The notes under the pieces are model-generated. The model was not told where the DNA came from. It saw only the letters and a list, made by a program, of their open reading frames with translations, and did no database searches. Positions 14,701 through 51,936 of a stretch of DNA of 64,000 nt are shown in pieces. Each line of letters begins with the position of its first letter. The stretch's first letter is position 1. Location of the stretch: NCBI GenBank assembly GCA_964017195.1, contig OZ024896.1, positions 31,469,430-31,533,429 on the forward strand, read 5' to 3'. Source of the DNA: Siderastrea radians. Taxonomy: Eukaryota > Cnidaria > Anthozoa > Scleractinia > Rhizangiidae. A program made the position numbers and the translations under genes.

Positions 14701-17700
14701 CGGCCTGGGAAAGCAAAATGTCTCGAGTACAATTCCGCTTAACTTGACACTGTTTTGTACCAAATTTCTGCAAGTTTTCTAAACATTTCAAGAAAGCTAT
14801 TGTAAATGTGGATTCACTCAGTTAAAAAATTCTTACGAAGTCAATCCACAGTCAAATATGTAATGTAGCAACGGTTGAAGTGGAAGAAATACTTAAAATC
14901 GATCGTTGTCCTTGGAAATAAAAACGACACTGACAATACAGTCTGTTCTCGAACAAGGATTTCTTTGCTCCAACTCTCCAATTTCTTCTATAACTGCCGT
15001 CGAGTATTTCAGGTCTTTTCCTTGTAGCAAAAAGCTTTTAAAAGAATTGTCTTCAAACGACTTCATCCTAAGGATGCATGTAAAATTACCGGCCTGAAAA
15101 TCGAGCGTACATCCGCTAAAAAAGTTTTTGTAACGCACCGAGTGCGAAACGATTGGAAAAAAAATCGAAAATCTTGCAAAATAAAGCTTCCTTACTTTTA
15201 CATTGTTGTCTCTTGATGTGTCCTGGTGGGGTAAAAAGCAGGTTTGTCGCTTATGTCACTCGAGTTCCTCTCAATTATGCACATTATAGACGTGATGTGA
15301 TCGACCAACTCGGCCACCACTGCATTGCATGTGTTTTTGTGGATTATTTTGAATTTTCCCGCGATTGAGCGACCCTGGGTGCGATCTTTACTACAACTAC
15401 CAGAAACCTTTGCGTGTGTGATGTCATAATGAAAATGGTCTATTATTCTCGTTACTGGTCTCCACACACTTTGTTGAGTATCAGTTGGGAGAACTTGTTT
15501 ATACATTAAGAAAGTTTATCTTTGGTGATCATTTCCCTAATACTCATCAACAGTATGCTTTATAATGCACTGACATGATGAGGAGAAATTTGATACTGAT
15601 CACCATTGGGGCTAAAAGGGTTAAAAAAGCATGCATTTAGTACCACTGACCAAACTGAGTGTTATTCAGTACTACTGTAAATGGTTTGAATCCAGGATTC
15701 ATGTCATAAGTCAATAAAGCATGATGATCCGGGTGAGTGTAGTCTTGAGAAGGACTGTTTGTGATGACATTGACTGATGTTTCAACAACCTGAGTGGAAG
15801 TCATCATCAGAGTCAAGTGAATTGTGAATCGTCAGTAAATGTTATAAGTCTCTGGTCGTTGTCCTGATTGGTCGATGAACTCACAGTGTTAATGGTCGTC
15901 TGTCAGTTAAGCCATGATGTTACCGGCTATGAAGACCACAAAACATGATTGGTGCATTTCAATCCATCTTTTGTTAGTTAAATTTCTGTTGGTTTATTGT
16001 TAGTAAAATTAGTAAGTTTGTCTGTCGTTTGTCTGTCTTCTTGTTGCCATCAATAGGTTGTTTGTAAGGTTCAGTACTGTCAAAAACTCTTATTTGTTTC
16101 AGGCTACAGAAACTGTCAGTGTTAAACTCCAACTGTGACCCAAGACTAGTAAAACTTTACTTTTGCATGTTCCTACTCTTGGCAGTCTAAAAATCAAGAG
16201 AACATACCTCAAATGGGAGTGATTCTTCGTCAACATCATGAGCTGTTTTTGATGACTAGCACACAGATCAGGAAGAACAGAAGGGTCGCCAATGTTTTGA
16301 GCTCGAGACTGGTTCTGTTGAAAACCTTGAGACATGTCAGCTTGAGACTGTGTCAAGGTCTGTACATTCTGAAGGAGTTGCTGTAGTCCTGCCAGTCTTT
16401 CGTCCAATCCTTTGATCTCTTTCATGTTTGTGTTATCAAGAGACTCTGTCATGGGGTGATATGAGACAGGAGCATAAATTTGTCATCAGCAAGTATAACG
16501 AATGAGTGACATATCGAGTTGAAGACAAGAAGAGAAATGTCAACACCTTTTAGTTTGTTGAACATAACATAATTCACAAAGACAAAAATGGTTACTTAGT
16601 ATTGACTAGTTTTTATCCAGAAAGGATGAAGGTAAAGAGGAGTAGCACAATCACACTTTAAGAGTTTCTTACCTAAAACTTGATTTACTTCCTCTGTGAT
16701 CTCAGTCAAGTGCGATTCATCAAACTGAAAAATTAGTTAATCATGAAATAAAGTACTTTGAATACTAACTCCTCTGAATTATTTTGTTGCAAAACAATAA
16801 ACAAGGTACATGTATCTACAATACCTGCTCAACTGCCTCTATACATTGTTTAACCATATCTTGAAGACTGTTCTTACTGTCCTGTAAAAATATTAATTAA
16901 ATAGCAATATTTTTTTTATTTTTCTGTAATAACAAAAACACTAAAAGAAAGCCCTGCTAAAGATATTTCATTTGAATGGTTTCAAGTAATGATTTTGTCC
17001 ACAAACTCAAATGCTAAATCCACCTGGTACAGCACAGTAAAGAGCACCACAGGAAAGTACTGCTCGGTAGCTTTCCTTTGAATCATCACACTATAGGATT
17101 TTATCCTCAGACTCAAAACTTGAAACCACCTTGTATGTAGCATAATAAACAGCTCCACGGGGCAAGTACTTCTCATTATTGCTTTCATTTAAATATGGTC
17201 ACACTTCAGGATTCATCCACCCACGCAAAAGTTGGAGCCACCTGTACAGCATAATAAACAGCACAACAGAACAAGTACTTCTCATTACTTTCATTTAAAT
17301 GTGGTCACTCTTCACGATTTCATCCACTCACTCAAAAGTTAGAACCACCTTGTACAGCACAAGAAACAGCACTGCAACAAGCATTAGTTGACCCAGAACC
17401 TAGAGCCATGTGTTATGAACCGAGCTTACGTATAGGATCTGGAAATGAAAGCTCCATCCCACATAAAATATTTTTTGACCCCTCTTTCTTTTGGACCATC
17501 TCACCTGTGCACTGATCCAGTCCAGCAGACTGGCCCTATCCTGCAGCCTCTCCTTGGATAGTTGTCTTGTTATTAGACATGGTAGAATAGGTACCCTGGC
17601 TAACAACGGCAACATCTGTTTGAATCTGAAAGAAAATAATTAATCAAAGAGCTATAAATAAATTAGAATATCAACTTACATGTACACATTTTGTTAATGA

Positions 17701-23569: not shown

Positions 23570-23707
23570 ATTTCCATAATACACATTGTCCCCACCCCCC
23601 AAAAAAATTTTGCAGAAACTACTGTTTTTAATTTTATGTTCCCAAGAGACATTGAAAACAATAGTTCCTGCAAAATTTGGGGGGCAAACAAAGTGTATTA
23701 TGGAAAT
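23570..23707. mobile_element. Foldback MITE abutting the SAM synthetase stop codon
   Basis: The left arm ATTTCCATAATACACATTGT is inverted at the right end as GTGTATTATGGAAAT. The inner parts also pair (CCCCCCAAA...TTTTGCAG and CTGCAAAATTTGGGGGG). Its right end runs up to the TGA of the gene at 23,707-23,709, so the proximal 3' UTR is made of this element. Confidence 0.75.
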
Positions 23708-24966
23708 CAAAACTCTAATTTCTTTGGCACTTCCCATGGAAAGCCAGGCTTAAAATGACCAAAGACACTAGTAGCCTTGAAAATGGGTTTACGCAAGTCT
23801 AGATCTCTTATGATTGCTCCTGGTCTGAGATCAAAATTCTTCTTAATGATCCTCAAAAGCTCTTCATCAGACATTTCACTGCTCCCATAGCTGAAAACTG
23901 AAACGGACAACGGATCAGCAATACCTATGGCATAAGCTACTTGCACTAAAGCACGCCTACAAAGACCTGCTGCAACCAGTGACTTGGCAATCCACCTGCA
24001 AGCGTAACTTGCTGACCGATCCACTTTTGTCGCATCTTTACCTGAAAAGGCCCCACCCCCATGTGCACCCCACCCCCCATAGGTGTCTACGATAATTTTG
24101 CGACCAGTTAGGCCCGCATCTCCCATGGGGCCACCAAAAACAAATTGTCCCGAAGGTAACAGATGATAAACCGTTTGTTCATCAAGGTATTTTTCAGGGA
24201 TAGCACTTTTTATGACAGTCTCTTTGAAATGGTGTCGTATTTCCTCCACTGATATTCCCTCAGCGTGTTGGCTGGAGATCAAGATAGTGTGAACCCTCTG
24301 AGGTATGCAAGCGCCATCTTTCAGATTGTACTCTACAGTCACCTGGGTTTTGCCATCAGGTCGTAACCATGGCAAAGTTCCATCTACTCTACACTCTGTT
24401 AGCCTTTGAGTCAGTCTGTGTGACAGCACCGTTGTTAAGGGCATCAGCTCTTCAGTCTCATCTGTAGCATAGCCAAACATGAGCCCCTGATCCCCTGCTC
24501 CAATCTCCAGCTCTTTCTTGTCCAAGTAAACCGACTTAGCTATCTCAGAAACTTGCTCCTCAATCGACAGCAAAACGCTGCATGTTTTGTAATCAAAGCC
24601 TTTCGAGGAATCATCATAGCCGATTTCTTTAACGGTTTTTCGTATAACGCCTTGATAATCTACCCTCGCTGAAGAAGTGATCTCGCCAAACGCCATGATC
24701 ATTCCAGTTTTACTTGCAGCCTCGCAAGCCACTTTTGCATGGGGATCTTGCTCTAAATGTGCGTCTAAAATCGCATCGGAGATCTGATCACACATTTTGT
24801 CTGTATGTCCTGGGCAAACGGACTCCGAAGTAAAAAGAAACTTGCTTCGGTCGCCTGTGCTGTAAGGACCAGTCACATACGAGCGAAGAGATGCTGCAAC
24901 GATGGGTCGCAGAGCAAACTTTGTTGTCAGTAGACGAGCAACAAATTTTGATCTAGAATTCAACAT
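23707..24966 (-). CDS. S-adenosylmethionine synthetase (methionine adenosyltransferase), intronless paralog with a putative mitochondrial presequence
   Basis: The product makes S-adenosylmethionine from methionine and ATP. The frame is open upstream to 25,116, but I chose the ATG at 24,966 (419 residues). It starts a basic, acid-free N-terminus of about 38 residues, [20 protein letters not shown] onward, ending near LRSY (residues 27-30). This looks like a mitochondrial targeting peptide. The enzyme core starts near residue 43 (LFTSESV) and is full length. It keeps [12 protein letters not shown] (156-167), GTLPWLRPD (196-204), GGGAFSGKD (303-311), KVDRS (314-318) and KNFDLRPG (376-383). It departs from the family in the ATP/methionine loop, CPGHTDK (51-57) in place of GEGHPDK, and near the C-terminus, [10 protein letters not shown] (403-412) in place of GHFGRxxFPWE. 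There are no introns, unlike vertebrate MAT1A/MAT2A. It is probably an old retrocopy. Activity cannot be judged from sequence alone. Confidence 0.93.
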
Positions 24967-25446
24967 TTTCACTCCAGAAATAATACTGGCAATAGATACC
25001 GTATTCTTGACTCCAGAACAGCAGAAAATGCAGCTAAATAAAACGTCCGAAGCGTATAAAACTAACTGGCTGAGCAAATAACACCTCGAGGTGGTGCAAC
25101 TGTAACAAAACAACAATTAATCGATATTTGGTCGTCTCTATTAGTGGCTTTCGTTTGCCTGACAGGACGATTATTTGCATTTCAGGAACAGCTGATGGAC
25201 AAAAGCAGGTGCGAATTTAATGGGAAATGTTTCATGACTAATGCTTTTCCGACCACAGATTAATTCTAGTGGTTGAATTGCAAGTGTCGGTTAACGATAA
25301 TTCGTCTCGCTAACCACTCGGAGAATTCCGTACGCCTTCGTCAAATGCCGGCTATGCTCGGAATTTCCCGTCCGTATAAATAAGGACCCCTTGGGACTAA
25401 CATGCATATTGTATTTCCGCTATAAAGTTTATTACACCTATACAAA
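24967..25446. promoter_or_regulatory. Shared divergent promoter region of the SAM synthetase and NALCN-like genes
   Basis: 480 bp separate the two start codons, which face away from each other. The plus-strand side carries a TATA box. I see no clear TATA box for the minus-strand gene. Shared regulation is inference. Confidence 0.55.
25375..25382 (+). promoter_or_regulatory. TATA box of the NALCN-like gene
   Basis: TATAAATA lies 65 bp upstream of the ATG at 25,447. A start site 25-30 bp downstream would give a 5' UTR of roughly 35-40 nt with no need for an upstream exon. Confidence 0.6.
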
Positions 25447-28400
25447 ATGGAGGCAAGAGGACAGTCGGTTGTTATTGAATCAGACCATCATTCTTCTTCC
25501 ACAACCTTATGGCCGCTTCGCCAAGCGGCTTATGCAGAATCTGTGGGATCGGACGATGAAGAAAACGAGGACATTTCGCGAACATGGTGGGTGAAAACGT
25601 GGTGGTTTCAGCGACTTGTTCAAGTCTGTGCCGTGGTCAGTTTGATTTCCACCGCGATGAATTCACCAGAGACTTTTAAATCGTCGCATGCGCTAAAATA
25701 TATTACTCTAGTTCTTGACATTGTTGTCGCCGTTGTTTTCACCACTGAAATGATTGCTCAAGTTAACATGTGGGGTCTATGGAGAAAACAGAAGAGCTAC
25801 CTCAAGCGACCGCAGTGTATTTTCAATGCGAGTATGCTGTTTCTTATATTCTTATCCATTTTGTTGCAACTCGTCGAAATTTCTGGCGCTTACATCTACG
25901 ATTCTTCGGAGGACAATAGACATAATTACGTTGGGTTTTCCATCCCAAGAGCTCCTAGAGCACTTATAATTATACGATTCTTCAACGTCCTTATCACAAT
26001 AAGCTTACCCAAGTCGGTCGCCCGGCGTTGTAAACGTCAAATCTGGGCTGTAACTTTATTCTTGTTGTATTTCATGGCGTTTGGCTCGATTATCGGCGTT
26101 CAGTTATTCGGGCGCAAAAACTTTTATTGCGTTAAAAACGGCGCTGATTTGAATAACATTAGCTACAGCGATCTACTATTGACTGATCACAGATGCAACA
26201 ACGTTAGCGGCGAAACTGGATACTTCTGTCCGAAGGGTTTCAATTGTGTTCACGTTGATTTCCAAAAGCAGGGAAGTGCGGCAGATAAAGACTACTTCGG
26301 AGATTTTCTTCTCAGTATTTTAACAGTCTACGAAAGCTCTACTCAAGAAGGCTGGGTTCTTGTAATGTATCGCATGATGGATTTCAGATCGCATGTTCTT
26401 GTTATTGTTTACTTTGTGTTGCTCATTTTCTTCGTGGCTTGGCTCGTAAAGAACGTATTCATCGCCGTCGTCTCGGAAACCTTCGCCGATATTCGGAGTC
26501 TCTACATGTACAGTCGGAAATCCTCGAAGCGTACTTCGGCTCGGCTCGCATCTCAAGTCATCAAAGATGGGGGAACGGGATGGCATTTAGTCTCAGTCGA
26601 TCACGAAGCTGTCAAAGGCCACGCACCCTTTCGTGTTCGGCAAATTGTCCACTCAGTTTACTTCAAGTACACAATGTGGTCCTTCGTTTTACTGGACGCC
26701 TTAATGCAGGCTGGCCTCCCCTACTCCTTGCGTAGATACGCCCAGTTTGGCTTCACCATAATATTTGACGTAGAAGTTCTGCTCAAAATTTCCTGCGTGG
26801 GATTTCGCCCTTACCTTGTAAGCAGAATGCACGTCACAGAATTTGTCCTAGCTGTTGGAAGCACGGTTTTTGCGTTGCCAATTCTGATCTCCGAGACAGC
26901 AGTTTTCTTGGCAGTTTTTAACGTGATGAGAGTAGTCCGTCTTGTCGGGGCAATTCCAACACTGCAAGAATTCTGCGAGAAAATCTTCGGTACTGGAAAG
27001 AAACTTGGCAGTGCGATTATGTTTACGCTGTTTTTCGTGATGGTTTCATCGGTGATAAGCATGCAGTTCTTTCTGACTCTGGACCCGAAAAACTTTGGTA
27101 CCTTCATGAAATCAGTACAATCCATGTTCCAGATTATAACACAAGAAGGATGGGTTGAAGTTTTGGATGAACTAATCCACAAAGCTAACAACCCCTTTCT
27201 GGCAACCCTTGTTGGGATGATCATCTTAGCTGTTCATTTATTCTCTTCACTCATCATTATGAGTGTCTTTGTAGCAGTCATCCTGGACAATTTAGAACTC
27301 GATGAAGAAGTCAAAATTATGAAACAGAAGAAAATGGGGGAAGAATCCCGAGATTCCACCGATGCACTCCCGATGCGACTTCGTGTCTTCGAGCGTTTCC
27401 GCGACGACCCACGATTGGTCAAGATGAGTCGGATCAAAACAACTTCGGATTTCTTTACGCCGAAGATTCGAGACAGTTTCATGAGGAAGTTTATCGACAG
27501 CTCGAGTTTGGAAGTCCCGTTGGGTGACGATCCGAGACTTCACGTCGGCGAAGGTGAGAAATTAAGAAGAAGGCGAGCTGCAATTCCAATGAAGCTCTTA
27601 AATTCAACAATATCCGAAGTGGATAAGCTTTCAAAGTTCGTCCGAAAGCAGTCGAGCATTACTGCGCTGATCAACGACTCTAATCGTCGGAGGACCTACG
27701 CGCTGCTCTCTCCGACGGAAATTACCCCGAGAAGTGCCGTCAGCGGAAACAAGCAGGCAGCGGCCGCCGCCCCTTCGGATTTCCGATCAGCCTCGAGACG
27801 TTTCCGAAGTCGCCAGCCGCAATCACCGAAACCAGCAACTCAGGGGGGCGTGAAACAAGTAATGCGGATTGCAAGTCAAGCCACGGGTCTTCACTCTCAG
27901 ATAACTCAAGATGACAGTAACATTGGCAAAGATTTTGACATCCAGTGGGTGCGTGTTAGACGAGAAGAAGCTCAGAGAAAAAGAAAAGCGCAAGAAGAGA
28001 AGCTACGCGAAAATCACCCATTCTTCGACCAACCACTTTTCTCGCTACAGCGTGACTCGTGGCTGAGAAGATTTCTTCAGAGCATGGTGAACGCGCGTTA
28101 CGCAATTCCACCGGGCCACAGAGAACGCGCGTCACGCAATAACATAGTCACCATGGAACGTCTCCACAAGTGTCTTGCTTCACAGACGTACATGGAATGG
28201 ATTATGATTACTGTCACGCTGATCTCCTGTATAGCTATGATGTTCGAGACTCCGACACAGCGTACATTTGTCAGGACTTCTACTGAGGTCATCGAATACA
28301 TCTTCTTTGTCGCAATGAGCATAGAACTTGGTGTGCGCATTCTGGCGAACGGCTTAATTTTCACGCCGAATGCCGTAATCCAGAACTTCGGGGGTGTACT

Positions 28401-30762
28401 AGACGTTTTCATATACTTCGTCGCCCTCGCCTACGTTGCCTGGCAACCACATCCCATACCTGCCCGCTCGGGGGCTCAGGTGTTGATGGTATTAAGGTGC
28501 CTTCGCCCCCTGCGCTTCGTCACATTGGTGCCCAAGATGCAAAAAGTGATCCTAGATCTTGTTGGGGGCTACAAAGAAATCCTCAAAGTGAGCGCTTTGC
28601 AGTTCATGCTCATGTTCATTTTTGCCAGCTATGGTGTCCAAGTGTTCTCTGGCAAGTTTGGAAGTTGCAATGATCAACGAATCAAGGAAAAAGCGCTATG
28701 CAAAGGAACATTCCAGATCGACATCGCAACGCCGCGGGAGTTGCGCGACCTACCTGGCTCCTCAAAAATTACCGTTCCCCGAGTGTGGAAAAACCCAAGA
28801 AATTTCGACTTTGATAACGTGTTGCACGCATTTCTAGCCTTGTTTGAAGTTCTCTCTTTGGAGGGTTGGCTGGAAGTCAGAGATGTGATTCAGGCAGTTG
28901 TTGCACCCGAGTACAGTCTATATGTCCATATCTACGTGCTTATTGGAAGTATGATCGGACTGACTTTGTTTGTGGGCGTGATTGTCATGAACTTCAATGA
29001 GAAGAAGGGCATTGCGTTACTCACGGTAGATCAGCGTCGTTGGCAAGACTTAAAGAAACGTCTTCGACTTGCGCAGCCCCTCCATCTTGCACGCAGACCA
29101 GATAAAGAAGGAATCCGTACTTTACTCTTCGATGCAACGCAATCATTAATCTACAAACGCATCATTATTTTTCTGGTGGTAGTGGATTGCGTGACGCTCA
29201 CGGTCGTCCATTGGACTTCAGAGGACAACCTACGATTGCGTGACGGACTGACAAGTACCGCGGCTGCGTGCTCGCTGCTTTTTGTTGTCGATCTGCTACT
29301 CAAAGTCATCGCATTCACGTTCCAAGGATACTGGCAAAGCAGGCGAAACCGGTTTGACTTGTTGTTGACGAGTCTTGGAGTACTCTGGGTAACTCTGAAT
29401 TTCTCACTGAAGGGAACTGGCGCTCCTTACACAGGAACTACGGTGTTTGGAATGGTGATTATCTTATTCCGCTTTCTAACGCTCTCAGGCAAACATGACA
29501 CTCTCAAAATGTTAATGTTGACAGTCGTGATGTCGCTTGTTAAAAGTTTCTTCATTATTGCGGTTCTCATCCTTGTGATGATAAGCTACTCGTTAGCCGG
29601 TGTCATCCTGTTCGGCACGGTGAAATACGGAGAAGCCTTGAACCGTCACGCCAACTTCAAGACAAGCTTCAACGCTATGATTCTCCTCTTCCGTATTACA
29701 ACAGGAGAAGACTGGAACAAGATTATGCACGATTGTATGCTAGCTAAGCCATACTGCACAGAAAATGCTTCCACTCCAAACTTTTGGGAAACTGATTGCG
29801 GTAATAGCGCCGCTGCCCTAATTTACTTCATGTCGTTTTATGTCATCGTTACGTTTGTTTTCTTGAACCTTTTCATCGCTGTGATCATCGAGAACTTTTC
29901 GCTCTTCTACTCGAGCGATGAAGACTCTCTCATTAGCAACACTGATCTTCGAGACTTTCAGCTCACTTGGAACTTAGTGGATAAATACCGTAAAGGGGTC
30001 TTAACAGTAAGGCAAGCTAAGCTTGTCCTTCGCTTGCTCAAAGGCCGCTTGGAAGTCGACAGTGGTTCACTGTTATTCAAACACATGTGTTGCGAAATTG
30101 AGAAGCTCAGAAACGGCAGTGAAGTTTCTTTTCATGATGTCATCGGCGTACTCGCGTACCGTTCGGTCGACATCAGCCGAAGCTTGCAACTAGAGGAGCT
30201 TCTGGAACGAGAAGAACTGGAATACCAGATAGAAGAAGAAGTTGCCATTCAAACCATCCGTGATTGGTTCGTAAATCTGCGACGGAAGCGCGCCGAGCGG
30301 GAATGGATCCGACATTTGGAGCAAGGTGGCATTGCATTGGCTGGTGGTATCCACTTCTCGGATAACAAGAGCCCGGGTGCATCGAGCGCTGAAAGTGTGG
30401 AAAATTCAGCCAATGAAGAGCAGGAACACGAGGAACGTGACGTTGAGGCAGAGCGTGACCCACGTGAGCATGATAGTAGCGAAGATGAGGATTTCTCAGT
30501 GTCCTCGCCTTCCAAGGGGCCGTCTATTCTACTTTCCAAGCCATCAACAAACAAGAAATCGGATCGCAAAACTTCTCCGGGTCGTAAAAGTTCGGTTACC
30601 TTCCCGGATGAACTGTCGATGTCAGCGAAGCGAAGAAGTTTGCCGGAAGCCCTTGGTGTTCCCAAACCGCGAAAGAAGAGCATTCCTGAAGTGAAAGAAT
30701 TTGCGGGAGACGTGCGTGATTGGTGGACGAGTCAGATGAAAGACGGACTTGAAACTTCTTGA
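25447..30762 (+). CDS. NALCN: NALCN-type four-domain cation leak channel, complete and intronless, EEEE pore
   Basis: NALCN channels carry the resting sodium leak that sets excitability; they sit in the plasma membrane with UNC79, UNC80 and FAM155. This 1,771-residue protein aligns along its whole length with NALCN (1,738 residues in human, from memory). Shared stretches include TQEGWV, FVAVILDNLELDE, ENHPFFDQPLF, ESGAQ-like RSGAQVLMVLRCLRPLRF, PRVWKNPRNFDFDNV, GIALLTVDQRRWQDLK, FWQSRRNR-like YWQSRRNRFDLL, FGTVKYGE, TGEDWNKIMHDCM, YRSVDISRSLQLEELL and the C-terminal DVRDWWTSQM. The pore residues are E301, E567, E1139 and E1421. Animal NALCN usually has Lys in domain III (SLKGW); here it is SLEGW. 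The domain I S4 has few charges. Variable regions are roughly 690-860 (II-III linker) and the acidic, Ser-rich tail after 1,620. The single exon contrasts with the dozens in vertebrate NALCN. It may be a retrogene paralog. Confidence 0.95.
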   Translation: MEARGQSVVIESDHHSSSTTLWPLRQAAYAESVGSDDEENEDISRTWWVKTWWFQRLVQVCAVVSLISTAMNSPETFKSSHALKYITLVLDIVVAVVFTTEMIAQVNMWGLWRKQKSYLKRPQCIFNASMLFLIFLSILLQLVEISGAYIYDSSEDNRHNYVGFSIPRAPRALIIIRFFNVLITISLPKSVARRCKRQIWAVTLFLLYFMAFGSIIGVQLFGRKNFYCVKNGADLNNISYSDLLLTDHRCNNVSGETGYFCPKGFNCVHVDFQKQGSAADKDYFGDFLLSILTVYESSTQEGWVLVMYRMMDFRSHVLVIVYFVLLIFFVAWLVKNVFIAVVSETFADIRSLYMYSRKSSKRTSARLASQVIKDGGTGWHLVSVDHEAVKGHAPFRVRQIVHSVYFKYTMWSFVLLDALMQAGLPYSLRRYAQFGFTIIFDVEVLLKISCVGFRPYLVSRMHVTEFVLAVGSTVFALPILISETAVFLAVFNVMRVVRLVGAIPTLQEFCEKIFGTGKKLGSAIMFTLFFVMVSSVISMQFFLTLDPKNFGTFMKSVQSMFQIITQEGWVEVLDELIHKANNPFLATLVGMIILAVHLFSSLIIMSVFVAVILDNLELDEEVKIMKQKKMGEESRDSTDALPMRLRVFERFRDDPRLVKMSRIKTTSDFFTPKIRDSFMRKFIDSSSLEVPLGDDPRLHVGEGEKLRRRRAAIPMKLLNSTISEVDKLSKFVRKQSSITALINDSNRRRTYALLSPTEITPRSAVSGNKQAAAAAPSDFRSASRRFRSRQPQSPKPATQGGVKQVMRIASQATGLHSQITQDDSNIGKDFDIQWVRVRREEAQRKRKAQEEKLRENHPFFDQPLFSLQRDSWLRRFLQSMVNARYAIPPGHRERASRNNIVTMERLHKCLASQTYMEWIMITVTLISCIAMMFETPTQRTFVRTSTEVIEYIFFVAMSIELGVRILANGLIFTPNAVIQNFGGVLDVFIYFVALAYVAWQPHPIPARSGAQVLMVLRCLRPLRFVTLVPKMQKVILDLVGGYKEILKVSALQFMLMFIFASYGVQVFSGKFGSCNDQRIKEKALCKGTFQIDIATPRELRDLPGSSKITVPRVWKNPRNFDFDNVLHAFLALFEVLSLEGWLEVRDVIQAVVAPEYSLYVHIYVLIGSMIGLTLFVGVIVMNFNEKKGIALLTVDQRRWQDLKKRLRLAQPLHLARRPDKEGIRTLLFDATQSLIYKRIIIFLVVVDCVTLTVVHWTSEDNLRLRDGLTSTAAACSLLFVVDLLLKVIAFTFQGYWQSRRNRFDLLLTSLGVLWVTLNFSLKGTGAPYTGTTVFGMVIILFRFLTLSGKHDTLKMLMLTVVMSLVKSFFIIAVLILVMISYSLAGVILFGTVKYGEALNRHANFKTSFNAMILLFRITTGEDWNKIMHDCMLAKPYCTENASTPNFWETDCGNSAAALIYFMSFYVIVTFVFLNLFIAVIIENFSLFYSSDEDSLISNTDLRDFQLTWNLVDKYRKGVLTVRQAKLVLRLLKGRLEVDSGSLLFKHMCCEIEKLRNGSEVSFHDVIGVLAYRSVDISRSLQLEELLEREELEYQIEEEVAIQTIRDWFVNLRRKRAEREWIRHLEQGGIALAGGIHFSDNKSPGASSAESVENSANEEQEHEERDVEAERDPREHDSSEDEDFSVSSPSKGPSILLSKPSTNKKSDRKTSPGRKSSVTFPDELSMSAKRRSLPEALGVPKPRKKSIPEVKEFAGDVRDWWTSQMKDGLETS

Positions 30763-30839: not shown

Positions 30840-31140
30840 ACAAACAGTACCACAGCCGTTAAGTACTGCTCAACGGCTTTCATTTGAATCGTCACACTGT
30901 AAGATTTCTTTCAATGACTCTTAAGTTGAACTACGTTGTTCAGCATAATAAGCAGAATTACACGAAAGTACTGCTCAGTAGCTTTCATATGAATGGTAAC
31001 ACTTTAGGATTTCATCCACAGACACACAAGTTAGAATCACCTTGTACAGTATAATAAACAGCACCACAGGAAAGTACTACTCAGTAGCTTTTATTTGAAT
31101 AGTCACACTTTTAAGATTTCATCCACAGACTCAAAGTTAG
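30840..31140. repeat. About 105-bp tandem repeat, three units downstream of the NALCN-like gene
   Basis: AAGTACTGCTC recurs at about 30,861, 30,965 and 31,072. Each time it is followed by CTTTCATTTGAATNGTCACA and GATTTCATCCACAGAC. It is the same unit as in RB1CC1 introns at 17.0-17.4 and 19.4-19.6 kb. The first AATAAA downstream of the NALCN stop (about 31,052) lies inside this repeat and could be its polyadenylation signal. Confidence 0.8.
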
Positions 31141-32209
31141 AACCTCGTCATGACTTAAGCTACGTGGTTACTGGGAAATTTGTTTGACAACACATTTTGA
31201 TGTTCAAGATCGGAAAGAACGAACTTTGAGTTTGGTTAGTTAGGCCAGGCTGCGCAAAGAAGAAAACATCGCTGTTGAGACTTTTTTCCAAAATGTTTTC
31301 CCGTTTGTGTGCTCTTGCAACTGCTGTGGAAGCAAAATGCTTTTGAAGAAAAAAAAATCAAAAACACGTTTTTCTCCTCGGAGAATAATTTGGCTTCCGC
31401 AACAATTGTTGGGGGGCAGCATCAAACAAGAGAACATATTTGAGCTACATTGAAGTTAGCAATTTTTTCCTCGGGAAAGTTTTCTCGTTTGATACTTCCT
31501 CGGGCAGTATCTTTGTGTTTCGTGTTGTATATAAACACACTTTGTGGTGTATTCTTCTTGGTTTGCAATTGATGGGCAGTGGGTAAGGACGTCCTAAGCG
31601 ACTTGTTCGAGTTTTTCTTTTTAAGTCTTGCTTTTTCGCACCGAAAAAACAACTTTCATATCAAACTGTTGCCTTGTTTGCTTTTATTTAACTTGAGGTT
31701 TATTTAACAAGATGTCCACCGTTGGTCAAGAAAAACCCATTTTTGTCTTTTTTATTGTTGTTGTTGTTGTTTTGTTTTGTTTTGTTTTGTTTGTTTGTTT
31801 ATTTTTTTTGGCTTAAAAGTCACTTTGATGTGTTTACCTGGAGCCCCTCAACTGATTTGGCTGCCAGACAAGCCTTTGAAACATATGTAAGATAAACTGT
31901 GTACAGAGAAAACTGTAGAAATTGTATATGTCAAATAGCGGCGACCTGCGTGAAACCAAATCGACCTGAGAACGCTTGTTCACGTAGAAATTATAAATGC
32001 GGATATATGTGCAATACAGCATGATAGGGTCGTAGGACGCACTTCGCAGAGAATAGGTACATTGATTAATATAATGTTGTTATATATTAAATGTATCGTT
32101 TTGCCTAAGTCGATATCGTGTACGTCATTCAAAGGTGCGATGGCGAGCGCGATAGGAAGTAGGGGGCTCGCTACCTTTTCCCTTCCCTCGTGTTCTGCGA
32201 TCGTGTCCC

Positions 32210-42300: not shown

Positions 42301-43034
42301 GCTAATTAGCTCCAGGGAGCAGAAGTTCAGTACTGATTTTTATTCAGTTCTCAGTGTGTGGCTTAAATTTTCCCGTTTACTTTGTGTGTTTTAGTAACGA
42401 GGTGAGATACCATATCCGTTGTGGCGGAATATAAACTTGTTTCGTGTTAAGCATGTTTTGACGCACCTAGTTTTGAAAATGATCAAAGAGGATTGGAATG
42501 TACAACATTCATCACAAGAAAGGTTTTATACTGGACTAAAAATTTTGCAGTGGAAAATTTTAGTCGCAATTAAAGGGTGTAGCGTTATCAATCCTTTTCC
42601 TTTGAAATATTTTTTCAAAGGTGAAATCTGATGAATATTACAGGTGGGATTCTGCGAAACAATCAACAGCAAAGATTTTAACGCATTGTTCGGTCTCATA
42701 ATTATTAGTACAAGCAATAACGATTGTACTTTTTCTTTTTGGAGTAAACCATAATCGAGCAAACTTTTTTTAAAATCTGGCATTAAGCTTTCTGTGAAAT
42801 GGAAAATAAATAACTTTGTCTTTCTGTCCCGTCTACGAACAAACTGTTGTACATGGTGTACACTCGGACCTAAGTTCGTTTATCATACAGCCATCGATTG
42901 GAACAACCCAGAGTCAGGGATCAAAACCGAAGAAACTTTTTTATCACTTCACTTGCTTCGTCATCCTTGTTGTCCTTTCCTGACATTGTCTTTCGTAGCC
43001 CAGTGTATTGCAATGTTGTTTGTCCTTTTTTACA
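42301..43034. other. Sequence between module copies and the 8.7-kb element; no gene seen
   Basis: Only short ORFs without recognisable content. It ends with TTTACA at 43,029-43,034, the left target duplication of the large element. Confidence 0.5.
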
Positions 43035-43145
43035 ACACCCCTCTGTAACAGACCCAGTGGAATCTTTATCTTCACTGGGTTTTTGGAAAAAACGTCACTG
43101 GGTTGGCAAATTTCCCACTGGGTCGGCTTATTTTCCGGTGGGTTT
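43035..43145. repeat. Left inverted end and subterminal CACTGGGT repeats
   Basis: It contains the terminal inverted repeat (43,035-43,062), then CACTGGGT at about 43,073, 43,096 and 43,117, and a variant CGGTGGGT at about 43,136. Candidate transposase-binding sites. Confidence 0.75.
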
Positions 43146-43401
43146 TTTTTCATAAGCTTATTCGATACAAAAATGGCCAGTTGTCGAAAATGAGAGGTTT
43201 CTATTGCTTTTCCATTATCCCCTTCCCCGCAAGTGGCTTCTTTATAGCGGCTAAATTGAAGGAACTGTCTTGGTCCAGGGAGGAATTAAAGAGGATTATC
43301 GCACAAAAAGTGTAACCTAAGTTAGCAAAGTTACAGCAAGAATCAATGTGGGATCACTAACCTTCTTGAGACATGCAAAGGTCAGAGAACGGCCATCAAA
43401 C

Positions 43402-46400
43402 TCATCGTAAACAAGCAATGATGTCTTGATATCTGTTCCCTCTGCCTCTTCTTTGCCTACGATCTTGATATACCACGGTCTCTTGTGCCTCATGATCACT
43501 TTCTGAAGGTTCAGCAACTTCTGTACATGTTTCTGTGCCCGCCGTGGATCTTTCCTCGCACACGTCTTCATGTGATTCATCTGATTGCAATGCCCGCTTG
43601 ATGGAATCTTCAAATTGCTCTGCTATCTCCAGAATTTCGCCGTATGTTTCTGTTGTCATCAAGAATTTAGTTTCCGTCACTGTGACAACCTCCTCCAAGA
43701 ACAAGGTCACTACCCCGTCGTTTCCATCACGCAGCACATGCGCATATCTCATGGAAGCATTCTTCCAGTTGAGATCTAGGGAATAGCAAATGTTGACATC
43801 ATCTCGTGCAGTTTCAACAAGAAAGTCCCCGCGGACTTTGGATCGAGGGCCAAGACTTCTTAGAGATACATTATGGGTTACTCTCAACAAATTGAAAGGC
43901 AACCCGTCAGTTCCACGAAAGGCTACTACCTCTCCCACTTCGAAAGCGTTACTGTTGACATAACTAGAAACATCATCCTGATCATGCACGGCGGCTACAG
44001 CGACAGCATCTTCTTGTGGAGTCGTTGAGGGTGTGAATATGGAATCCTGTATGGGTGTCGCATTTAAGGGGCGCCTGGTTGCATGCTGGCCAATAATTGT
44101 CGGTGGTGTTCCATACTTCCTCTTCTGGAAATCTCTTAAAGTTTTCATGGGTCTGGACTTGGTAGCCATGTGAATACCCCTAAGCTTCGCCTTTTGGTCA
44201 TCAGTCAAGTTTCCTTTACATCCAAGCATGCTCACATACCCCCGACAAAACGCCATCCTCCCAATGTACAACTGCTTTCTTAACAAAGCTGGGTCAATGT
44301 CCTTACCATTTTCCAAGTTGGTCTTAACTTTCCTTAAGTCTTCAGTAGTAAAGCAATGTTCATGTCTCTGTTGGAACATCGCCCACATTGCGTCCGAAGA
44401 GGTCTCGTTGTCGTCAGAGCCTACAGCAGCATACGTGTAAGTGGAGGACACCTCATCTCTTGTTCTCCTGACACTGACGTTTTGACACATGGTGTTATCT
44501 GAAGTGACAGCAGGGATGACGAAGTGAAAAGCCTCAGTGGCGACACGTTTGGAAAACTGTAGAACAGTTGGGTTATTTCCTGGGTTCTTCTCAGTCACAT
44601 GGCCATAGAATCCCTCAATCATGCGCGTGCCAAGAGTCTTAACTTTGATTTCGTTCAGAAGATTCTCCTTTCCGGTGTACTTGAAATAGTCTGACAGATA
44701 CTGTACACCATTCACAAGAGTTACGTAAAATCCTTCTGCTGTACGTGAAGCCATAGATCCATTGGTTATATCAAGTGAAACAGCACCGGTGTAAGTTCGT
44801 ATGTCTGTGATAATACTTTTTAACTTGTCAGCTGCCGTGATGATATCTGGAAGTGAATCGACCAATGTCTTGTTCCTTACAGAGGAAGCGTGAAGTGGAT
44901 CAGATGAACGAGCTCTTTCTGACACTAATCCCATTGATTCAGCAATATCGTGCCATGTAGACTGAAACTGGACAAGGCCTTTTAAAGAAGATGCCATTCG
45001 GATAGCACCTTGGAATTCTGACGGGTGCTCTGCTACGTACAAACATGCGCCCCGCGCCGCTACACCAGCGGGAAAACACAGTTTGGCGGAGTTGCTAGGT
45101 CCATCAGTTTGATCAGGATCATTGAGGTGCCCTAGAATCACAGCAGCCGACTGCTCTGAAAAATTGATCTTGAAAATACAATGCTTTAGGTGGTCAGAGA
45201 AGTAGATCTCTCCATCCATTTCACAGAGCCCGAAAGGAAATGCAACACCATGTGCAGCACCAAACTTGAAAGCTTCTTTCACGCCACTGTCTTCGATTAT
45301 GACAACCTTTACTTCTCCACTCAGTTCGTCAGTGGATAAGCAGTCTGTTACAACAATTACATTATCCGCAAAGTAGAGGCAATCTATTGGGTGGCTTAAT
45401 TCGGGACTCTCGATAGTGCGGCATATTGTAATTGAAGTGTAATCATCAGAGAGAGCACAGAGATAAATCTTGCCTGCAACAGGATTGGTCACCAACACTT
45501 GTTCTTTATTTGGAAGACCGCTGCGAATACTAAATGGCTGAAATTGCTGACTCTGGCCAAGTACTTTTAAGGTGCTTACAGACGTCTTGTATGATGGATG
45601 GCGAACAATTCGTGCAACGTTTTTCACGATCCTTATTGAGCACAGCTTTGAGTCACAAACAAGTAAATCCTGTTCGCCGTTAGTCAAAGCCAAGCCAGAA
45701 ATAGAAACCCATTTTCCTTTCTCTGAGGGAACACTCTCTGGTGCGAAAGGGACATCGTCATCTGGAACTCCTTGATAATTCACCTGTGCACTTCCTTTCG
45801 ATATCGGGATCAACTTTCGTGGCAATGGTGTCTGTCTGTAACACGATAGGGACTGATTGGAATCGTCAGTGTAGTATACAACACCTGCCTTTGATATCAC
45901 CAGAAACAATGGAGAGGAGATGCCCGAGTGATCTTCGGCAAACCAAGGCCTACGAAGTTCTGGAATGTCAGTCCTTACCAGTTTCTCAACTTCTCCACAA
46001 GCATTGATCACTGACTCACTAACTCTTTGCAAGCTCTGCTCATCAGAGTGTTTGTCTAACTGGGATATGGCTTTGTGTGATACCCCTTTCAACATTCTTT
46101 CCACAACATCATCTTTTGCCGAGGATAGAAGCAAAGATAAATCTGTTGAGTCATATGAGTGACGACCATCAAAATGCGTACCCCTCTCCAAAGAAGCTTG
46201 AGCATTTTTAACCTGGTGGCCGATGTCATGGATGTGGTAGAAAGGGAATTGCAGAGGGCCGTCACCATCTCGAAATGATTCAACTGAGGTCGATATCTCC
46301 TTCCCAAACTTCTCGTATGCGGACTCTTGGTCAGATATTGAAAGAAGTATGCGTGCTCGAGTGCATGTGATGTCCTCCCCTGTTCTAATTCTCCCAATGC

Positions 46401-49400
46401 AGGATTCACAGGGTCGCTCGTCGCAGTTCCAGGTATCATAAATTCCAACGTGAATATGACATATCGCTTTATTTAAAAAGCAATCCTTGCAAAAGGCATT
46501 GCAAACAGGAGCCAGCCCGCTTCTTTTTGCCGATTCCAAACAAGCCGTACAGGCTGAGACGTATTTCAAAACTTCTGTGACACGACTCTTCACATCGTTG
46601 TAGTCCCCAGACTTCTCCAAATGGTATATTGCGATGGGAAACGCTACCATGTCATCCAAGAGATGTAGCAAGAAGACTTCCCCTTGCTTGATCCAACTTA
46701 AGTGGCCATCTTTGAACATCTGAATTAAATTCTCCAGCATTTTCTTATACCCATCCTTCGAAATGTTCTCTGCATCTTCAACTGTTATTGCAGGTGAAAT
46801 TCCAAATAAACTCTCTTGGTATAAGCAGGCACCAGGCGAGATTGCTTTCTGGTCAAGTACAACTGTAGTAAAGACAACCACGGACTGATCGCAACGAAGA
46901 ACCATCTTTGATATTCTTTGAAAAATTTCAAGTGCAATTTCAATGAAATTTACAATGACCCCACTGAAAATGAGGGGAACACAGGCTTTTTTGTACCAGC
47001 TAGAGTTAGAAAGGCCAAAGTGATTAACAGTGTTTGGTTTGGGTAAAGGAATTGGGCCTTGTGTTATTTTCACGTTTTGTCCTACGTTGTGCTTTCCCAA
47101 GTAAATATTATAAGCCTGGCGACCAGAGACAGATTCCCTTATAAGCTCTTGTTGCAAAACTGCTGCCGGAAACAACTGATGCAGATTTCTTATCCCTCTT
47201 ATGGGGTCACTTGATATTCCACCATAAAACGAACTAAAGAGGTCTATTTCTTGAAAATGGCAATGACTCTCCTTTATAACGTTCTGCTGATAGAGCTCGT
47301 TCATTCGTACAAATGTTGGGTGAATATCTTCCGGATTTACTGAAAGGACAAATTAAAAGCATAATGTCGGTATAATGCATGAGAAGGTCTCTACAGGCAG
47401 ATACAGACTGACTGCTGCCCGTTTTTTATCGGTTTACGTTGGATACTTCGTGAGGAAACAAAGGAAATCGGCAGAGACTGTAACACTGGAATCTTTCGTA
47501 GAAACACTGAATGCTTAGAAGAGTTTATCAGAATTTGTGTTTATGTCTACCGAAAAACTGATTTCTCTTTTTATGGTGTAGGTTTATTTCCCTTTGTTTC
47601 AGTTTTGTGATAATGACTATAAAAACAAATAAATATAAATCCCACCTGTTAGAAATTATTTTCAAATAAAATTTATTGCAACCCACACCAACGTGACATT
47701 TTCTTGATCAACTGGTAAGTAATGAATGTAATATTTGGATAACACGGATAATCTACACAAAGATCTGATTGCTTGTTTCTGGAACGACTGAAAAACTGAA
47801 GGTTTAAAACAATAGTTATTCCAGTCCTGCAATATAATGGATAACAAAACAACAACGCCAAACAAACTGGGTAAAGTTCAACAAAATTTTTCTTAAATCA
47901 ACTGAGAAAATGCATTGGCATGAATATAAAAAAACACAACAACTTACAGTGCATTTACTGGAAAGTAATTTCCTCCACAAATCAACCAATTTATGTTCAG
48001 CAGTCTAAAATTTGGTTTAAATGCATATATACAAGCACTCCCAGTAATCACATTTAATCAGGTAAATGTTTGATGAAGATGCAAAGTAAAAGTTTTTCAT
48101 CTTATAGCACTGTTCATGTTTGTTCCTTTGTTTGTTCAGAATAAACAAAACCACAGCAGCATCAACTGATGCAATTTTCTTTACCATTAAGAAATTTTAC
48201 AATGGCTGAATTTAAGTAGATGGCTTACTTAAAAGTCCATTCTGATTAACATCTTCTGGGTCCAAAATTTCTAACACTGCATTTTGTCGGACATATAGCA
48301 TCCAGTTTGATTCCAGAAGATCAAAGTGAGGATACTGACTTCGGGCAAATGCACTGAACTCTTGAAGTGTACATTCTCGTGTCCCATGTACTGTAAATGA
48401 AAAAAAAATGTGCCTTTGAAAATTATGACCATACATTATTACTATGATCTGTAATTTTCTTTAGAGGGATGAATGAAATTTATTATTTAGATAATTCTGT
48501 GTAAAGGCAAATTCCTGGGTGATCACATGTGAAACTGTTAACATTGAAGGACTATAGGTGCTGTCATTTTCAAATGTCTGACCTGTTTTGCAATCCTCGT
48601 CTTCACATTCTTTGATGTTTGGAAGACCAGTTAAAGTACTCTTGTTAAAGTTAAAGGGGGATATTCTCACTCCTGTGAAATAAACAAATACAATAATTCA
48701 TTAAACAACAAATTCACAATTAATTTGGGAGCTTGGTTTAATCATATTGATTCCACGTTTGGTGCTTAAATGCTCTCTTTCTTAGGGAAATATGTAAAGT
48801 TATATTTCCTTTGAAGGTTTTAAACAATAAAAATTCTAGTCTTGCAATATCATAGGTATCCAAAAAAGGACCTACAGTTTAAATGTAATGAAAATGAAGT
48901 GAGGAAAATTTGTAACATGATAATGGCTCGTATCAGACTACTCCCATAGACACGTCATCACATGATTCATTTATGAAACATGTCAGAAAGGGAAAAGCAG
49001 AACCTTCTGAGGTAAAGATGCCTTTCTAATTTTTTGTTATTTTTTTTTATTTATAAGCTAATGCATGATAAAGTAAATAATCCCTTTTTAATTCTCTATG
49101 TGATTACTCAAAGGGACCATGTCATGACTGAATGACCAGTAACCGGTTTAATACATTTAATCTAGGTTTTCAAAATAAACACTTTGAACTAAAAGTTAGT
49201 GAAAATATTTCTCCTGTTGATCTCAACATTAAAAACATTGCTATATTTCAAACAAAAATGTCACCTGGGCATCATGATGAAATATATGAAAGAAACAAGC
49301 TCCCTTTGAACATTGTTCAGTCCAACAAGTATTGCAAAAAACCTATTTTGCAAGCCCTTTCAATCTTCATCAATTTTTCCCAGCCTTTTCTTCTTTACAG

Positions 49401-51395
49401 TTTTTTTGTATTTCAGTTGCTGTGTTATTGAAATGTTTTAGTATACTTTAAGTTGGTTGAAATTTAGAGCCTTAAATACTAAACATCTATACCTGAAACA
49501 GTCACCTCTTGAAAACCATGGGCTTTACCCCCTTGACACACTTCAACAGCAGGGGTAAGGCATTCTTTGTTGGAGGACAAGTATTGCTCATGTCTCCTCA
49601 GAAGCACATCTGCTGCAGCTACCATGAAAGATAGAAACATAGAAACAATTTTACAGTTATTTAACTTGTAATGTTGTGTGTCAATAATAAAATTTCAAAG
49701 TTTTAGTCTAAACAAAGATTAGAAGGTGTGGCTGCTAGACCCTATCCCTGAAGTGCTCTGTATTTTTTAACCTCTTGCACAGACATCTCCCATAAGTAAT
49801 GAGTTAGGCTTGCTTCTTTTTTTTTAATTGGTTACTGCTTACAGTTTGGGGACAAAGTATTATATAAAAACTATTATATAATTCAATGAACATCTAAAAT
49901 TCAGAAATACTGTGCTCATATTTGGGTTATTTATATTGAAGTTTCCTGGCTAATAAATACATCTTATTCGTGCAGATATTTTGTGAGTTGCGTAGTATTT
50001 TTCCGAGCCCCGTAGGGGCGAGGTAAAATATTAGCAATGAGCAAAATGTCCACTTGTATTATATGTTAAACCATCGAATAAGGGATTTATTATTACACTT
50101 ATTTTTCCAGTTTGCTTGGGCCAGTATTCCGTAAGTTTGTCGCCCGTATTTTTGCCCTGTTCTACTGTGTAACAACGTGGCACATTTTGCGCGTTCTTTT
50201 GCCCTAATATGGAAAAATGGTGCAATAGTGGAATAATAACACTACATATAAGCAAAACACACAGTATTTCATCAAAGAAAATACATTGAAAAGATGTGGT
50301 CAATAACATGTTCAGTGGATTATTATATCATCACAACTGTATCATACATAAGCTACTGTAAATGTACTTACCTCTGTAGCGTGATGTCACTGGGTTATCC
50401 ACATGACTGCTCTTTATATGCTTCCAGAAATGATCATTCTTTATCATAATATCATTCAAGTGTCCAAGTGCCACAACAGCAGCACAGATTGGGCATTGAA
50501 CACACAATGGGTTAAGTAATAGATCAGCAGATCCAAACACCTTCCTTACAGCAGCTCTTTTATCAAAAAACCTTCTCAGTTCGCATGATGTGAGTAGTTT
50601 TCTCACTTGGCCAGCAAGCTGTTGTCCTTCTGGACATGGTGCTACAACAGCTTTGGTAGAGTGAGAAACTGAGCAAGTTTTGCACCATGTTTCCTTCAAG
50701 TTACGTCGAATTAGTTCCCGCATTGCATCTTCTCTAGACTTCTTTGGGAGCCCTTGGATGAACACGCCGCTCCAGTCCTTTTCTATTATCATGTCCAGCA
50801 CATTTTTGACATTCTGCTGTGGAGCATTTGACACTGTTGATGGACCGGGTAGCTGAGAAGAAAACAAACCACGTGTTTGCAAGGCGGCACTGGCAGCACT
50901 AGAGACGGTTTCAACTTGCAATGTTACTGTACAATCTTGGCGACTCTTCAGAAAAAAGACAAACGATTCCCATGTCGCTGAATTCAAAGTGACTTTGCAT
51001 TCGCTGTGATTGTAGTAAAGCTGTGCATTCGTTCGAGAAGTCGAGCAAGCATTTAACACTTTCGTCTTAAATAAATCAAATGCATTAACTGACTTCAATG
51101 AAAACATAAATGGAATGAAGCTGTCACTACTGTCTTTTCTCACAAGAGCAGTATAAACTGGCTCATTTTTCTCATCACCTTTGGAAGCGTGGCGATCCTT
51201 CCTTCCAGACTTGCGCCGGTAGGTTTTACGCGTTTTACTTCTGCTGAATTTCGTCTTCTTATTTTCCACCTCCCGTACATATTTGCTTCGCTTTCCATGT
51301 CGACTTCCCGTGCGAAAATCATCAATATCAGAGTCCGAAGAGGACGAATCGCTTTCGGTTCCACTGCTGGAAGAAGTGCCAGTAGATTCCGCCAT
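43402..51395 (-). CDS. Transposon-encoded 1,779-residue protein with BED-like zinc finger, Cys/His cluster and NHL-like propeller
   Basis: Function not recognised. Exons are 51395-50372, 49618-49493, 48672-48583, 48390-48229 and 47339-43402. All four introns are phase 1 with good GT/AG sites and the spliced frame is fully open. Exon 1 encodes a Ser/Asp-rich then basic N-terminus, an unassigned globular region and a BED-like finger (CVQCPICAAVV ... HFWKHIKSSHV, about residues 300-335). Exon 5 (1,300 residues from its first Met) has a cluster CTACLES ... CNAFCKDCFLNKAICHIH and NCDERPCESC. Next comes a propeller-like region with NHL-style blades, for example FPFGLCEMDGEIYFSDHLKH and DGPSNSAKLCFPAGVA. 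A conserved-looking block follows, with RMIEGFYGHV and NNPTVLQF. That block is reminiscent of the ENFF...NPTxxQF motif of P-element/THAP9-like transposases (weak inference). A second frame at 43,317-43,500 also looks coding, so the true C-terminus may differ. Confidence 0.8.
49963..50063. mobile_element. Foldback element in intron 1 of the transposon gene
   Basis: The centre TTTTTCCGAGCCCCGTAGGGGCGAGGTAAAA forms a hairpin (quoted here as two facing arms, CCGAGCCCC and GGGGCGAGG). The outer arms near GATATTTTGTGAGTTGCG and GCAATGAGCAAAATGTC also pair loosely. It has the same style as the element at 1,738-1,846. A nested insertion inside the larger element. Confidence 0.5.
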
Positions 51396-51604
51396 GTTGT
51401 TCGATCGGCACCAGTCCTACGACCGAGTTGAGTGTCACGTGGTTCAAATCAGGGCGGAAAAGGCGGGAGAACGCTTTTCCCACCCTGGTTCAAATATATC
51501 CCGCAGTTTTTACTCCTCCCAGATTTATTTTGTTTGTTTGTTTTTTTTAATATAAACGGGCTATTGTTGTATTTAAATTATTTTTATTTTTTGTTTGTTT
51601 GCAA

Positions 51605-51762
51605 AAATACGCTGGGTATGTAAGGTACAATCACTGGGGAAGCATAAAAACGGCTGGGTAAAAAAAAAATATTCGCTGGGTAGTGGGGAGACTAAATTTC
51701 CACTGGGTAGGGGAAAAAAATCCACTGGGTCGGGTTCCACTGGGTCTGTTACAGAGGGGTGT
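51605..51762. repeat. Right inverted end and subterminal GCTGGGTA/CACTGGGT repeats
   Basis: Repeats at about 51,611, 51,632, 51,652, 51,675, 51,702, 51,723 and 51,739 lead into the inverted terminus. Nearly all point the same way as those at the left end, so the arrays are not mirror images. Confidence 0.75.
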
Positions 51763-51936
51763 TTTACAGCAAACGTAATTCGCTGCCGTTATGAAACAAA
51801 AGGTTGTTTAACAGGGGCCTGACTGTTCTGCGCCCTGTCCTTACAGGAAGACTTCGTTTCACTTCTTATGTAAAACGTAGTGATAAGCAAGGGGCTTAAA
51901 ATAGCAATTAAAGCCGAAAGACATGATAGAGTCAAT

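Follow-up and report, generated by a model that had tools for sequence, protein, structure and literature searches.

A recently mobile transposon family of Siderastrea radians encodes a putative DDE transposase carrying an NHL-type beta-propeller

We analysed a window of 64,000 nucleotides from the genome of Siderastrea radians (contig OZ024896.1), in which an earlier note, made from the sequence alone, had singled out a complete transposon-like element. The element spans 8,728 bp, has the termini ACACCCC..GGGGTGT and carries a single gene on the minus strand. Its boundaries are as follows.

43029..43034, no strand: left target-site duplication, TTTACA
43035..51762, gene on minus strand: whole transposon, 8,728 bp
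43035..43062, plus strand: left terminal inverted repeat (TIR), 28 bp, 28/28 identity to the right end
43052..43123, no strand: left subterminal CACTGGGT array, four exact units, unit 1 inverted and inside the TIR
51610..51745, plus strand: right subterminal CACTGGGT-like array, three exact units and three with one mismatch
51735..51762, minus strand: right TIR, 28 bp, 28/28 identity to the left end
51763..51768, no strand: right target-site duplication, TTTACA

The matching inverted ends, the TTTACA flanks and the subterminal repeat arrays that the earlier note had described were all recovered. The terminal 28 bp agree at every position, the 6-bp flanks lie immediately outside them, and the window contains ten occurrences of CACTGGGT where 1.55 would be expected, seven of them in the two subterminal regions.

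A search of the host genome (805 Mb, 439 contigs) with both ends, as the earlier note had suggested, found at least 27 occurrences of the left end, 16 of them at 100% identity, and at least 31 of the right end. Pairing 19 left ends at ≥98% identity with 19 right ends at ≥96% resulted in 17 near-identical copies at 17 places, and an exact 6-bp target duplication flanks every one (17/17); eight divergent left ends, 12 divergent right ends and four unpaired ends (two left, two right) were excluded from this count. The duplications comprise 15 different sequences and are 77% A+T, while a 6-bp match is expected by chance at about 1 in 4,096 sites with equal base frequencies and somewhat more often in A+T-rich DNA. 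Because the copies carry these duplications, the transposon nature of the element is established, and it belongs to a real, recently mobile transposon family. The alternative of a normal host gene flanked by repeats that resemble each other fortuitously, to which we assign a very small probability, is refuted by the genome-wide occurrence of copies with both ends and exact duplications.

Divergence between copies is mostly no more than about 1%. Aligned blocks of at least 1,000 bp in the near-identical loci have 98.7-99.8% identity to the window copy, a range that also takes in introns 3 and 4 wherever the aligned stretch reaches them, and identity in shorter blocks falls as low as 96.1%. Internal deletions that spare both ends but remove the middle reduce seven of the 17 paired copies to 2.3-4.2 kb (one on C8, three on C7, and C3:14.7, C1:13.1 and C14:29.8). 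The copy at C3:14.7 Mb sits within a repeat array. When its flanks are joined with a single duplication, they give an ungapped alignment of 163 bp (82% identity) with a neighbouring array unit on the reverse strand, as would be expected of an unfilled site. Exon 5 is matched over its full 1,300 residues at ≥99% in eight loci, of which five are stop-free and three have one stop. Three copies (the window copy, C1:73.3 and C13) measure 8,728 bp with exons 1 and 5 open, so that, with near-identical, full-length copies at hand, activity is directly testable.

Two further loci were recorded during this search. On C9 (L056, G000:C9, 805 bp), an element of about 0.65 kb lies between divergent versions of both ends, and inspection of its flanks by eye revealed no 6-bp duplication. 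At the copy at G000:C3:10.31 Mb (L014, L054), the flanks joined with one duplication are open for 59 codons and then reach a stop; this copy may lie within a different gene, possibly one belonging to a mobile element.

Between the ends, exons 1 and 5 are the sole frames of at least 170 aa. They belong to one gene of five exons on the minus strand, with all four introns GT-AG and in phase 1.

50372..51395, minus strand: exon 1, acidic/basic N-terminus and CCHH finger; its relatives adjoin older exon-5 copies
50403..50495, minus strand: finger C301-x2-C304-x21-H326-x4-H331 (exon-1 numbering)
49493..49612 (or to 49618), minus strand: exon 2
48583..48672, minus strand: exon 3
48229..48390, minus strand: exon 4
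43402..47339, minus strand: exon 5, proposed catalytic region, propeller and C-terminal domain

The joined exons form an open frame of 1,777 or 1,779 aa, because exon 2 has two in-frame acceptors six bases apart. The intact five-exon gene with phase-1 introns and 1,779 residues that had been proposed therefore holds, as the form with the longer exon 2. The exon-5 frame of 1,300 aa is stop-free, and its residues are numbered here from the ATG at 47304. The finger ligands C301, C304, H326 and H331 are kept in 6, 6, 7 and 6, respectively, of seven older genomic copies, a sample from the 51 exon-1 matches listed in which two of the seven are near-duplicates. A second possible ligand set in exon 1 (C238, C241, H245 and C254) is less certain, with H245 present in three of six. 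The earlier note had spoken of a BED-finger/NHL-propeller protein, and this description stands for the propeller, on profile and model evidence given below, but not for the BED finger, which lacks Pfam profile support: the exon-1 frame matched no Pfam family at E values up to 1, and hence neither zf-BED nor THAP. Only the CCHH spacing fits the BED label.

Three protein database searches yielded 30 proteins of the same family, nearly all unnamed and many of them fragments; in the second search, 19 of 28 matches were dropped as NHL-only (6-19% query coverage or no alignment). P0001, which represents 143 member sequences, is nearly identical to the window protein. Long frames with the same architecture also occur elsewhere, namely in P0002 (45% identity to exon 5 across its whole length), P0008 (33% identity over 99% of the last 992 codons) and P0030 (1,248 aa; 38% identity over 96% of the first 720 residues). 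One relative is an uncharacterized protein of the hydrozoan cnidarian Clytia hemisphaerica. P0003 gave no match to exon 1, and the viral contigs searched contained no relative. In a chimeric relative, P0005, the propeller is combined with a stretch resembling exon 1 (45% over 71 residues), so that exons 1 and 5 are linked outside the window copy. In the host genome, older relatives share 44-64% amino-acid identity, and by coordinate comparison exon-1 relatives lie beside older exon-5 relatives at eight places, some of them near right-end-like arrays. Comparison of the window copy with six older copies gave dN/dS values of 0.11-0.13 for five, with dS near saturation in these five, and 0.46 for the sixth, which has 17 stops. 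These ratios demonstrate purifying selection on the predicted protein.

Exon 5 contains a series of conserved residues and a beta-propeller, which we located with an alignment of 31 rows (the window protein and its 30 relatives), PDB profile searches and structure models.

46852..46854, minus strand: D151, proposed first catalytic Asp (FDxKAxSPG), in 13 of the 14 rows present
46399..46551, minus strand: Cys-rich cluster C252-C302, between D151 and D325
46330..46332, minus strand: D325, proposed second catalytic Asp (ISDQ), in 21 of the 23 rows present
46216..46227, minus strand: D360-x-x-H363, C/DxxH motif (HIHDIGHxxKNAQASLERG), D360 in 21/21 rows and H363 in 20/21
44986..45987, minus strand: six-bladed NHL/YWTD beta-propeller, about residues 440-773, from PDB profile and model matches
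44614..44616, minus strand: E897, proposed catalytic Glu (E-x-FFGHxTE), in 7 of the 8 rows present, eight rows only

The propeller is confidently modelled and lies between D360 and E897. Its assignment to the NHL type within a mobile element, as first claimed from sequence, was confirmed by the PDB profile and by the structure model, and Pfam NHL was detected in four of ten family members (best E 0.00065). The best 50 matches of the VIA fold search were propeller proteins, and the best 50 of Foldseek were mostly propellers, the remainder being a small number of ribosome-assembly and other proteins; some of the matches had a large rmsd. Our literature search found no NHL or propeller transposase, although Repbase and most subscription papers were outside its scope and priority is thus uncertain; neither term, NHL or propeller, occurs in a review of RNase H-like families (PMC3985635).

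Around the propeller, the relatives conserve a D..D..DxxH..E series that the earlier note had missed. The exceptions are few: P0033 has Tyr in place of D151, P0040 has Asn and P0050 Thr in place of D325 (the latter in a stretch unlike the family), and P0009, whose row is poorly aligned there, departs at E897. The cysteines C252, C255, C268, C275, C299 and C302 are each kept in ≥94% of the 18-20 rows present. From this pattern of conservation, we infer that D151, D325 and E897 are the catalytic acids. A C/DxxH motif between the second D and the E marks the hAT/P/MuDR/Kolobok/Dada group, as described in two papers (PMC3706591, PMC9587614).

In the structure models, mean pLDDT was 44.5 in model 1 (1,200 aa, 10 rows) and 65.1 in model 2 (876 aa, 31 rows); around the four proposed residues it was about 26-53 in model 2 and no better in model 1. 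In model 2, residues 355-359 form a strand that ends at D360, a helix begins at 361, and E897 lies in a helix spanning 895-904; at such low pLDDT, this predicted secondary structure amounts to a resemblance to the DDE arrangement rather than a demonstrated fold. Because the proposed catalytic region is of low confidence in both models, an RNase H-like fold that brings the acids together is put forward as putative only. The earlier statement that the protein belongs to no recognised DDE transposase family was borne out by Pfam, in which 19 distinct proteins of the 31 aligned rows matched no DDE family at E values up to 10 or 5, in a scan via HMMER whose filters drop very weak matches. Neither the D325-D360 segment nor the E897 segment matched a transposase in PDB profile searches, and there was none among the best 50 matches of either fold search. 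The best PDB profile matches of these segments, to a ribosomal protein at E 0.62 and to epimerases at E 0.0074, were taken as chance.

Such low confidence in the catalytic fold, together with the common role of NHL domains as interaction domains, would suit a different reading, in which the protein is a captured NHL-containing gene and another transposase moves the element. We consider this improbable, since exons 1 and 5 are the sole frames of their size between the ends, their relatives occur together at the eight older places, the conserved acids follow the order of DDE enzymes, and P0002, P0008 and P0030 have the same architecture elsewhere. We instead regard it as likely that the element is an autonomous cut-and-paste DDE transposon, the single gene of which encodes a transposase with a beta-propeller as its insertion domain.

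To place the element among known transposon groups, we compared it with published descriptions. P/THAP9 transposases carry a THAP zinc finger upstream, and the element also has an upstream finger, although of CCHH type and without a Pfam THAP match. The P element and THAP9 have in common with it the order D, D, [C/D]xxH, insertion domain and E, as well as terminal inverted repeats. In the P element, D303 and D339 are 36 residues apart, compared with 35 between D325 and D360 here, and a GTP-binding insertion domain (339-528), followed by E531 on helix 4, occupies the place of the NHL propeller (PMC8230255). The P-element duplication is about 8 bp (PMC3706591), whereas that of our element is 6 bp in 17 of 17 copies, and none of the Pfam P-element models matched among the 19 proteins. 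Hermes, a hAT transposase, also has an insertion domain (PMC8230255), in the place of which our element has a beta-propeller. The hAT superfamily shares membership of the C/DxxH group with the element, and hAT6 additionally its 6-bp duplication, which is also described for IS3EU (PMC12730594). No Pfam hAT domain, the dimerisation region included, was found among the 19 proteins.

Membership of four other superfamilies was considered and excluded on the ends or the duplication length, with the quoted descriptions setting the element apart. Dada belongs to the C/DxxH group and resembles the element in its 6-7 bp duplications, large multi-exon gene and Cys-rich finger before the catalytic part; however, Dada-U6 and Dada-U1 are described as without terminal inverted repeats, unlike the 28-bp TIRs here, and Dada targets RNA genes, whereas 17 copies of our element have 15 different duplication sequences (PMC3706591). 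Fungal IS3EU families share 6-bp duplications and long TIRs with the element but have the ends TAYGG..CCRTA (PMC12730594). Kolobok duplicates TTAA (PMC9587614) rather than varied 6-bp sites, and Zisupton (KDZ) has an 8-bp duplication (PMC12730594). The CMCT/RAG1 clade is characterised by C(2)C and H(3-4)H motifs between the second D and the E (PMC12730594). Between D325 and E897, no CxxC was found among columns kept in ≥93% of at least six rows. RAG2 is a beta-propeller that takes part in DDE recombination as a separate protein of kelch type; in our element, the propeller is of NHL/YWTD type and is part of the same chain as the acids, between which it lies.

These comparisons suggest that the element works like a hAT/P-type transposon, and we file it in neither. 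It probably forms an undescribed lineage within the hAT/P/MuDR/Kolobok/Dada group, whether as a superfamily of its own or as a highly divergent member. The 6-bp duplications of hAT6 and IS3EU, and the P-like order and 35-residue spacing of the motifs, are compatible with a very divergent member of one of these named superfamilies that acquired the propeller and uses the same mechanism, a reading we hold to be possible but doubtful, given that the 19 proteins match no hAT, P or other Pfam DDE model (with the HMMER filters that drop very weak matches) and that the ends are unlike those of IS3EU. We lean slightly towards an undescribed superfamily of animal DNA transposons, in which an NHL propeller is inserted between the second and third catalytic residues of a DDE transposase.

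The features demonstrated are the ends common to the copies, their 6-bp duplications, the recent spread, the conservation of finger and acids, the propeller fold and purifying selection; building on these, we propose the following mechanism. The exon-1 zinc finger would bind the ends bearing CACTGGGT, and a DDE-type RNase H-like site (D151, D325 and E897, with D360xxH363) would excise the element. The same putative site would then join the ends to the target strands with a 6-bp stagger. The propeller, which would fill the place of the insertion domain of the P (GTP-binding) and Hermes transposases, could act as a scaffold that holds the transposon ends, or could offer a surface on which host or chromatin partners dock. 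If this is right, the family is a new lineage of cut-and-paste transposases outside Pfam coverage, with a new insertion-domain solution, and a single-chain counterpart, independently arisen, of the partnership between RAG1 and the RAG2 propeller. The insertion slot of hAT/P-like transposases could then hold an interaction domain, which might steer target choice, and the role of a propeller in transposition becomes testable outside RAG. A transposon origin is also suggested for some unnamed proteins, such as that of Clytia.

Elsewhere in the window, an uninterrupted 1,771-aa frame on the plus strand (25447-30762) contains four ion-transport stretches (PF00520, E 1.9e-131) and is apparently a four-domain channel, intronless over that length. 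A single 469-aa frame on the minus strand (23707-25116) encodes an S-adenosylmethionine synthetase; it contains all three Pfam domains and no intron, and is therefore possibly a retrocopy. A 555-aa open frame on the minus strand (8883-10550) had no Pfam match at E 0.001. Two tandem arrays (17020-17372 and 30861-31144), about 14 kb apart, consist of 106-109-bp units with a similar consensus.
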